In this document: one piece after another, positions 4,170-20,436 of the stretch
Layout: every line of letters begins with the position of its first letter
Numbering within the stretch: position 1 is the first letter of the stretch
NCBI RefSeq assembly: GCF_011742555.1
Contig: NZ_JAAQQR010000004.1
Location: 372,001 to 436,000 of the forward strand
Direction of reading: 5' to 3'
Length of the DNA: 64,000 bases
Origin: Luteibacter jiangsuensis
Lineage (GTDB): Bacteria > Pseudomonadota > Gammaproteobacteria > Xanthomonadales > Rhodanobacteraceae
Made by a program: the position numbers and the translations under genes
Notes under the pieces: model-generated
What the model was told of the DNA's origin: nothing
Databases searched by the model: none
The model's input: the letters and a program-made list of their open reading frames with translations, nothing else

Positions 4170-4333
4170 GTGAGTCGGTCGCTGCGCGACCTGTGCGGTT
4201 CGTAAGTCGGTCGCTTGCGCGACCTGCGAGTCGGCCGCTGCGCGGCCTGTGAACCGTGAGTCGAGGCGTAAGCTTACGGTTCACAGCCGGGCGAAGCCCG
4301 CGACTTACAGGCCACGAAGTGGCCGACTCACGC
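4170..4333. repeat. Family A composite palindromic element, copy 1
   Basis: This intergenic block between the kup stop and the ruvB start is built from about 24-base units. Each has a conserved head (GTGAGTCG or GTAAGTCG), a short self-complementary stem and a tail ending CCTGT. Units run rightward at about 4170-4194, 4202-4227 and 4226-4250. A central hairpin follows (GTGAACCGT at 4249-4257 pairing with ACGGTTCAC at 4276-4284). Two units run leftward at 4285-4308 and 4309-4333. Stem sequences differ between units but stay paired: GGTCGC/GCGACC, GGCCGC/GCGGCC, CGGGC/GCCCG and GGCCAC/GTGGCC. Two related copies lie at 12517 and 20220. Confidence 0.8.
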
Positions 4334-12516: not shown

Positions 12517-12641
12517 GTAAGTCGGCCGCTACGCGGCCTGTGAGTCGCGTGCCGCGCACGCTGGGAACCGTCAACCGAAGAGTGAGCTGACGGTTCCCAG
12601 GCCGCGCAGCGGCCGACTTACAGGCGGCGCAAGCCGCCGAC

Positions 12642-12646
<5 letters not shown>
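12517..12646. repeat. Family A composite palindromic element, copy 2
   Basis: This element lies between clpB and the zinc-ribbon gene. Rightward units are at 12517-12541 (stem GGCCGC/GCGGCC) and 12540-12563 (stem GCGTGC/GCACGC). A central hairpin pairs GGGAACCGTCA (12563-12573) with TGACGGTTCCC (12588-12598). Leftward units are at 12599-12621 and 12622-12646. The architecture matches the copy at 4170. The TGA in the GTGAGTCG head of the last unit is the stop codon of clpB (12644-12642). Confidence 0.82.
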
Positions 12647-20218: not shown

Positions 20219-20372
20219 CGTGAGTCGCCCCGCTTTGCGGGGCTGTGAGTCGCCCGCCTTGCGGGTGTGAGTCGCCCGCCTTGCGGGTGTGAGTCGCCCG
20301 CCTTGCGGGCTGTGAGTCGGCCGCTGCGCGGCCTGTGAACAGTAAGAAGAGCCGCTCCGGTTCACTGTTCAC
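20219..20372. repeat. Family A composite palindromic element, copy 3 (expanded)
   Basis: Five tandem rightward units follow bamD: 20220-20243 (stem CCCCGC/GCGGGG), then 20245-20266, 20267-20288 and 20289-20311 (near-identical, stem CCCGC/GCGGG), then 20312-20334 (stem GGCCGC/GCGGCC). The central hairpin arm GTGAACAGT (20335-20343) can pair with ACTGTTCAC (20364-20372). The leftward units of copies 1 and 2 are absent; a heptamer tandem array occupies that position. Confidence 0.82.
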
Positions 20373-20436
20373 TGTTCACTGTTCACTGTTCACTGTTCAC
20401 TGTTCACTGTTCACTGTTCACTGTTCACTGTTCACT
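20361..20436. repeat. Heptanucleotide tandem array (TTCACTG)10 plus 6 bases
   Basis: Ten perfect head-to-tail copies of TTCACTG, then TTCACT, occupy 20361-20436, between the convergent bamD and nadE genes and 4 bases from the nadE stop. The unit is a subsequence of the right arm of the central hairpin of the adjoining family A element, so the array probably arose by slippage or rolling amplification of that arm. Perfect short repeats of this length usually vary in copy number between isolates. Confidence 0.95.

Follow-up and report, generated by a model that had tools for sequence, protein, structure and literature searches.

Composite intergenic arrays of REP-like hairpins and heptad repeats in Luteibacter, dynamic between species and without RAYT linkage

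Two described kinds of bacterial repeat come closest to the elements reported here. According to excerpts of Di Nocera et al. 2013 (PMC3733652), GTAG REPs often lie close to RAYT genes and predominantly 3' of coding regions, carry a short conserved 5' tag followed by a 5–13-bp stem with a short loop, occur as inverted dimers and clusters, and form subfamilies with alternative complementary stem bases; the same excerpts describe CGTC REPs as REP-like hairpins that lack an associated transposase gene. The inverted GGGAATC heptads of Xanthomonas, as far as excerpts of PMC4692102 describe them, form mostly intergenic arrays that lie nearer the upstream gene, are often convergent pairs, and in two species mostly occupy matching gene intervals, their length and sequence having changed. 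A third body of work concerns a process and not a family. Template switching homogenizes the arms of inverted repeats and inverts their spacers (excerpts of PMC8604942), and it can create and maintain hairpins (excerpts of PMC8794818).

We analyzed a window of 64,000 nucleotides (G000:C15:372001-436000) from the 4.33-Mb, 20-contig assembly of Luteibacter jiangsuensis (G000); the relative with the most elements in common is Luteibacter sp. SG786 (G022). The original prediction had proposed three intergenic copies of one architecture in this window, with conserved heads and stems GGTCGC, GGCCGC, GCGTGC, CCCGC, and GGCCAC. Direct reading of 4170-4331, 12517-12645, and 20220-20435 bears this out, and each named stem is present with its complement. 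The parts are as follows.

4170..4331, no strand assigned: copy 1, whole composite, by direct reading
4170..4192, plus strand: copy 1 unit, stem GGTCGC, loop TGC
4202..4225, plus strand: copy 1 unit, stem GGTCGC, loop TTGC
4226..4248, plus strand: copy 1 unit, head GCGAGTC, stem GGCCGC
4249..4284, no strand assigned: copy 1 core hairpin GTGAACCGT..ACGGTTCAC; in Luteibacter sp. SG786 the interior is inverted
4285..4308, minus strand: copy 1 inverted unit, head GTAAGTC, stem CGGGC shifted one base past the usual start (scored as stem GCGGGC with one mismatch)
4309..4331, minus strand: copy 1 inverted unit, stem GGCCAC, loop TTC
12517..12645, no strand assigned: copy 2, whole, with orthologues in G022 and G008
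12517..12539, plus strand: copy 2 unit, stem GGCCGC; G022 has GGCTGC/GCAGCC, a two-sided change
12540..12562, plus strand: copy 2 unit, stem GCGTGC
12563..12598, no strand assigned: copy 2 core hairpin GGGAACCGTCA..TGACGGTTCCC
12599..12621, minus strand: copy 2 inverted unit, stem GGCCGC
12622..12645, minus strand: copy 2 inverted unit, stem GGCGGC, loop TTGC
20220..20435, no strand assigned: copy 3, whole, five units, core, and heptad arm, flanked by two convergent genes
20220..20334, plus strand: copy 3, five tandem units, with stems GCCCCGC, three of the GCCCGC type (two of them ending GCGGGT), and GGCCGC
20335..20358, no strand assigned: copy 3 core (GTGAACAGTAAG...)
20359..20435, minus strand: copy 3 heptad arm, GGTTCAC and ten TGTTCAC; G022 has fewer, more varied heptads

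Copy 1 is flanked by the end of what we take to be a kup-like gene and by the start of a presumed ruvB, both on the minus strand, and copy 2 lies between the end of a presumed clpB and a short gene that we take to be zinc-ribbon-like (names suggested by the reading frames).

A hairpin unit consists of the head GTRAGTC, a stem of 5–8 bp that begins at the base right after the head, a loop of mostly 3–4 nt, the second arm, and a T, and the following unit often abuts directly. Units are assembled as [units]n, a core (GTGAACC..GGTTCAC) whose inside differs locus by locus, and [inverted units or GTGAANN heptads]m. The right arm is made of inverted units in copies 1 and 2 and of bare heptads in copy 3. 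All arrays thus have a seven-base theme in common, GTRANNN, either as the hairpin-carrying GTRAGTC (the REP-like unit) or as bare stacked GTGAANN, and these intergenic inverted repeat arrays consist of two arms of opposite orientation on either side of a core. By eye, GC often lies 5' of the left end and 3' of the right end of arrays. Two details of the predicted layout had to be corrected. Copy 1 does carry hairpin units, but they number five (one with the head GCGAGTC), and GTGAGTCG at 4256 belongs to the core; the right side of copy 3, thought to be replaced, does differ, but it is a run of heptads, an arm form that recurs elsewhere. A genome-wide search extended the set to the 16 hairpin-bearing loci examined in G000.

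The prediction had also stated that no described family has this layout. Compared with the excerpted accounts, the layout instead combines tagged REP hairpins (PMC3733652) with inverted heptad repeats of the Xanthomonas kind (PMC4692102). Like the GTAG REPs of those excerpts, the Luteibacter units have a short conserved 5' tag, a perfect or near-perfect short stem and a loop within 2–20 nt, inverted dimers and clusters, a mostly downstream position, and alternative complementary stem bases. Unlike them, their head is the seven-base GTRAGTC and not GTAG, the stem starts after the C, and the arrays have heptad arms and lack RAYT linkage (PMC3733652); neither a flanking RAYT of the same genome nor a large set of near-identical units was found. 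With the excerpted Xanthomonas arrays they have in common tandem seven-base intergenic units, a position nearer the upstream gene, convergent pairing, and retention between the same genes with altered length and sequence, whereas the Luteibacter heptad is GTRANNN (GTGAANN in the bare arrays) and not the G-rich GGGAATC with its quadruplex potential, some heptads carry perfectly paired mini-hairpins, and inversions between species can be demonstrated (PMC4692102). CGTC REPs, as excerpted, resemble the Luteibacter units in having no associated transposase gene but differ in tag and layout (PMC3733652). Like the products of template switching described in excerpts of PMC8604942 and PMC8794818, the elements display arm homogenization, spacer inversion, and compensatory multi-base changes; unlike those products, which come from inverted repeats within coding DNA of yeast and from RNA-gene stems, they are arrays with nested inverted units. 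We found no account of a GTRAGTC element in Luteibacter in the open-licence literature of PubMed Central, and PMC12306157 contained neither the genus names nor the head string.

The elements are not a product of chance. The window holds 15 GTRAGTCG sites where 4.24 are expected, a number reached by none of 100 shuffles, and 14 of the 15 fall inside the three copies. When head pairs 6–30 bases apart were collected across G000 with stems ignored, 18 were found against one for the reversed pattern, and in 16 of these 18 head-to-head spacers the head is followed immediately by a perfect stem of 5 bp or longer; when the spacer interiors were shuffled 500 times, such spacers averaged 0.37 and never exceeded 3. 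The 18 spacers are not all independent, because copy 3 supplies two near-identical ones. The head counts and this head-only spacer test rule out chance in GC-rich DNA, and the head-only selection also rules out an artefact of the hairpin filter. No Rfam family matched the window at its gathering score, which excludes a known Rfam RNA. Bare heptads were equally distinct from their control, with 32 overlapping matches to four consecutive GTGAANN in G000 and 37 in G022 versus none for the reversed pattern in either genome. Seven GTGAANN loci of G000 are devoid of hairpin units, and six of these have facing heptad arms by eye, L226 being the exception.

An alignment of paralogous units confirmed that, as predicted, stem sequences change in both arms jointly from one unit to another. 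It comprised 22 units (20 distinct) from G000, G022, G008, and G013, all with a 6-bp stem and a 3-nt loop, other sizes being excluded. Because these units had been preselected as hairpins, the variety of their stems counts as evidence and their 100% pairing does not. Both-sided changes occur at five of the six stem pairs, and covariation was 0.70 compared with 0.166 ± 0.038 for shuffles and at most 0.14 when the partner was slid. Further pair types within this alignment did not rise above shuffles (179 of 500 reached the observed value).

Orthologous units tell a different story from the reading that shape and not sequence is selected or copied. We aligned same-site elements between species in 22 pairs, in which one G000 unit may meet up to three relatives; 64 unit comparisons resulted, 9 with gaps were dropped, and 55 were used, the pairs c1/L013, L007/L078, and L008/L080 being excluded from the stem count as too diverged. 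Among 314 orthologous stem pairs, 307 are unchanged, 2 changed on both sides and still pair, and 5 changed on one side and are unpaired. Changed positions number 47 of 180 (26%) in loops, 21 of 383 in heads, and 295 of 4548 (6.5%) in the flanks, which look largely coding. Stems are therefore protected between orthologues in sequence as well as in shape, and "shape, not sequence" fails on this time scale.

At the flank rate, ∼38 one-sided stem changes would be expected in place of the 5 observed. If arms were copied at that rate without selection, ∼20 of the 314 pairs would have changed on both sides, in place of 2, and template switching that corrects arms consequently needs added selection or biased correction. 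Loop changes between orthologues often span several bases at once. In the L003 element, one 3-nt loop reads TGC in G000 and is flipped to GCA in G022 (L065). In the L056 element, the outer units on the two sides have identical loops in three of four species (GTT/GTT, TTC/TTC, and TTT/TTT), the fourth, G022, having TTC/GTT, and this common loop suggests exchange between inverted units.

Three loci have an inner segment inverted between species while the flanks are unchanged, which is the configuration expected of template switching. We tried every possible inverted segment and scored the gain in alignment; the comparison simulations used a divergence chosen by hand and moved in steps of two bases, versus base by base for the real pairs. 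At copy 1, the interior of the G022 core resembles the reverse complement of its G000 counterpart (gain of 18 versus a maximum of 6.4 in 60 simulations). In the L002 element, a 105-bp block that runs from the inner left unit through the core to the inner right unit has opposite orientations in G008 (L071) and G000, while the outer units keep their order (gain of 22.8 versus a maximum of 7.2 in 60 simulations); the same block gave 25.4 between G008 and G022, a comparison without its own simulation. The core of the heptad-only locus L227 is inverted relative to L237 of G022 (gain of 17.8 versus a maximum of 7.4 in 60 simulations).

An inverted core was found in 2 of 17 orthologous G000-G022 pairs (14 hairpin elements and 3 heptad-only loci), and as 15 pairs have none, flipping is not frequent. 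Pairs with poor orthology or bad cropping were not counted (L230/L233, 31.2; L225/L235, 11.6; L225/L234; L226/L238; L068/L080, 12.6; L008/L080, 12.8), and L231/L242 (gain of 14.0) was likewise left outside the inversion count. Gains of 12.8–14.2 at L007/L073, L060/L073, and L073/L081 arise in sequence adjacent to the element and were excluded too. In the left flank of L007, compared with L073 of G008, the stretch GGGGCTTACGGAGCATCGCCCC beside the element also looks inverted (gain of ∼14).

Unit number varies between G000 and G022: five versus six at copy 1, four versus five at copy 2, and five versus four at copy 3. Occupancy of the sites also varies. Among 20 relatives (the 22 minus G006 and G020), the site of copy 1 was recovered in 20, that of copy 2 in 19, and that of copy 3 in 12. 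The copy 1 site carries the element in G022 and a related array with GTCAGTC heads and heptads in G013, and a unit cluster was not found in the other 18 of the 20 relatives. The copy 2 site is filled in G022 and G008, most other relatives carrying ∼2.9 kb of other DNA, and the copy 3 site is filled in G022. Between the same genes at the copy 1 and copy 2 sites, several relatives hold 1–4 kb of other DNA or GTAGGAGC repeat pairs.

At the copy 3 site, 10 of the 11 unfilled relatives show, by eye, a GC-rich hairpin with a T-run that resembles a terminator, the T-run being weak in G008. The L004 element is present in one of six genomes compared, being absent from the same site in all five relatives searched, and all five carry, by eye, an A-run and a hairpin near the position of the element's end, which is the terminator pattern of the opposite gene. 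Filled and empty sites are clearly distinguished between species; at the two sites that were read closely, L004 included, sequence was replaced and not cleanly inserted.

We determined the gene context of 16 elements from reading frames scored by base composition. Eleven were called between genes of the same direction, three between convergent genes, and two between divergent genes, although the convergent call for copy 2 was mistaken, its left neighbor being a short minus-strand gene. In 11 of the 16 (c1, c2, c3, L002, L004, L005, L007, L009, L055, L058, and L059), a called gene has its stop codon at most 20 bp away from the element or just inside it. Folded as minus-strand RNA, copy 1 reaches −103.2 kcal/mol (z = −5.88; z = −3.65 as DNA). 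A terminator scan listed none at the three copies, and no T-run follows the units; the three copies are therefore not ordinary intrinsic terminators. By analogy with REPs, we think that the elements may act as transcribed 3'-end hairpins, possibly in concert with Rho or as a barrier to exonucleases.

Template switching at inverted repeats combined with selection for paired stems covers most of these data. We put the chances at about even that the elements, which mostly stand just after genes, are hybrids of REP hairpins with heptad repeats, independent of a RAYT and remodeled in place by slippage and inverted-repeat template switching. No dedicated transposase would move the arrays, and DNA replication would remodel them where they stand. 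Slippage would alter the number of units and heptads, whereas polymerase template switching between inverted repeats would mend mismatched arms, rewrite or flip loops, and invert the core or an inner block. Selection would preserve stem pairing, the most likely reason being that the arrays are transcribed just 3' of genes as strong hairpins that end or protect transcripts.

The three inversions relative to their flanks (copy 1, L002, and L227), the flipped loop and the multi-base loop changes, the common loops of L056, and the varying unit number all speak for this remodeling. The conservation of orthologous stems, the position at stop codons, and the fold of copy 1 are consistent with the selective part, as is the location of copy 3 and L004 where relatives have terminator-like hairpins. 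Several observations sit less easily with it. Unbiased arm correction alone predicts far more two-sided changes than were found, a terminator-like T-run is missing after the units, two elements were called between divergent genes, and flipping is infrequent. Reciprocal recombination between inverted repeats yields identical inversions, and neither the origin of a first copy at a new site nor the gain or loss at the L004 site is accounted for.

The elements might instead be purely selected RNA structures, namely 3' UTR hairpins or attenuators, in which selection on pairing produces the covariation and mutation is ordinary. The deficit of one-sided stem changes, the strong fold of copy 1, and the position after stop codons agree with such structures as well. 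What they leave unexplained are the inversions of cores and inner blocks, the flipped loop, the multi-base loop changes, and the loops common to left and right units, and we consider this account doubtful.

The original prediction named copying by a hairpin-recognizing enzyme as one possibility, and the REP-like anatomy of the units (a short conserved 5' tag, a 5–8-bp stem, a short loop, inverted partners, and an intergenic position) would fit a REP- or REPIN-type miniature element mobilized by a RAYT, an HUH tyrosine transposase, that reads head and hairpin. Such a gene is available: the single Y1 transposase gene found in G000 is a RAYT (131.9 bits; cut-off of 80), and RAYTs above the cut-off occur in 22 of the 23 genomes of the genus. 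The occurrence of the L004 element in G000 and its lack at the same site in five relatives would also suit a mobile element. The repeats beside the RAYT genes point elsewhere. The REP family that flanks the G000 RAYT (GTGGGAGC...GCTCCCAC) differs from the GTRAGTC units, and across the genus GTRGGAGC repeats accompany 24 of 25 RAYT loci, as judged from flanks of 1.5 kb or as much as the contig provided. At the same 25 loci, a pair of GTRAGTCG heads was never found, and a single GTRAGTCG occurred at three, no more than chance for eight letters.

A lipoamide dehydrogenase gene precedes the G000 RAYT (L003:11396-12450, G000:C4); beyond the RAYT, a 150-bp segment containing GTGGGAGC..GCTCCCAC pairs is repeated in about four near-identical copies. 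Extra RAYT matches were seen in G013 (L040, L053, and L054) and G012 (L033 and L052), several of them at the very ends of contigs.

Genomes outside the genus bear on the same question. G060 and G302 both have the layout and gave no RAYT match at E ≤ 0.001, and GTRAGTC was absent from the two RAYT loci of G045 and from one sub-threshold match of G087. The copies are few and diverged, and the closely read L004 site shows replaced sequence and not a clean insertion. RAYT linkage is accordingly ruled out by the flanking repeats and the genomes that have the layout but gave no RAYT match, and copying by an enzyme of the RAYT kind, the enzyme search having covered Y1/RAYT proteins, is unlikely.

The spread of the arrays among genomes was followed with a unit model, for which 150 candidates were scored per genome (in G000, 150 of 11,439 first-look candidates). 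Matches at E ≤ 1 numbered 43 in G000, 40 in G022, 18 each in G008 and G003, 19 in G013, 13 in G001, 11 in G014, and 9 in G016, and the best match in the other 15 Luteibacter genomes had E = 0.0049; the 43 of G000 carry many different stems. With stricter filters, 8 of 299 genomes of the order had a match at E ≤ 1e-4: six Luteibacter (G000 included), G060, and G302. G302, G060, G045, and G087, which belong to other genera, have similar layouts with sequences of their own, namely GTRAGTC-type hairpins and facing arms with other heptads or octads (GTAAAGA, AGTAAGC, and GTGAGACG), and the G060 layout has a single unit per side. In G302, a 2.4-Mb genome of another family, the units of L244 and L245 match the Luteibacter unit model strongly.

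Simple patterns are less discriminating. Four GTGAANN in a row were matched by 12 of 119 genomes, one of which, G097, has many matches to the reversed control as well; G045, G048, and G054 match nothing but that control. The tandem-head pattern occurred in 16 genomes; in eight of them (G001, G009, G010, G041, G053, G064, G101, and G116) no hairpin was seen by eye between the heads, and these were taken as chance. Among 80 of the 115 stretches from a pattern scan of public genomes, one was from Luteibacter sp. SG786 and the rest were from other groups.

A site-specific recombinase acting on a small invertible switch is suggested by three inversions bounded by inverted repeats but, after a recombinase search that covered the Y1 family, is highly improbable: the inverted stretches are of different kinds (the core alone, the core with inner units, and a heptad core), and at the three copies the analysis listed no promoter-like site.

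The elements are real and dynamic composites in which REP-like hairpins are joined with heptad repeats, with no link to the RAYT, and they unite two kinds of repeat that had been described separately. More tentatively than the remodeling itself, one may picture transposase-free, self-templating palindromic arrays in which heptad microsatellites would gain hairpins and come to face each other as inverted arms, template switching would keep the stems and flip inner blocks, and REP-like elements would be born and kept without a RAYT and eventually stand in for terminators. Stem covariation is often read as proof of a selected structure or of a hairpin-reading enzyme. Here orthologues separate the parts, with stems kept, loops scrambled, and inner blocks sometimes flipped. 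The elements are thus natural inversion markers with which template switching can be measured in a bacterium, and they permit testing how REP-like repeats without a transposase arise.
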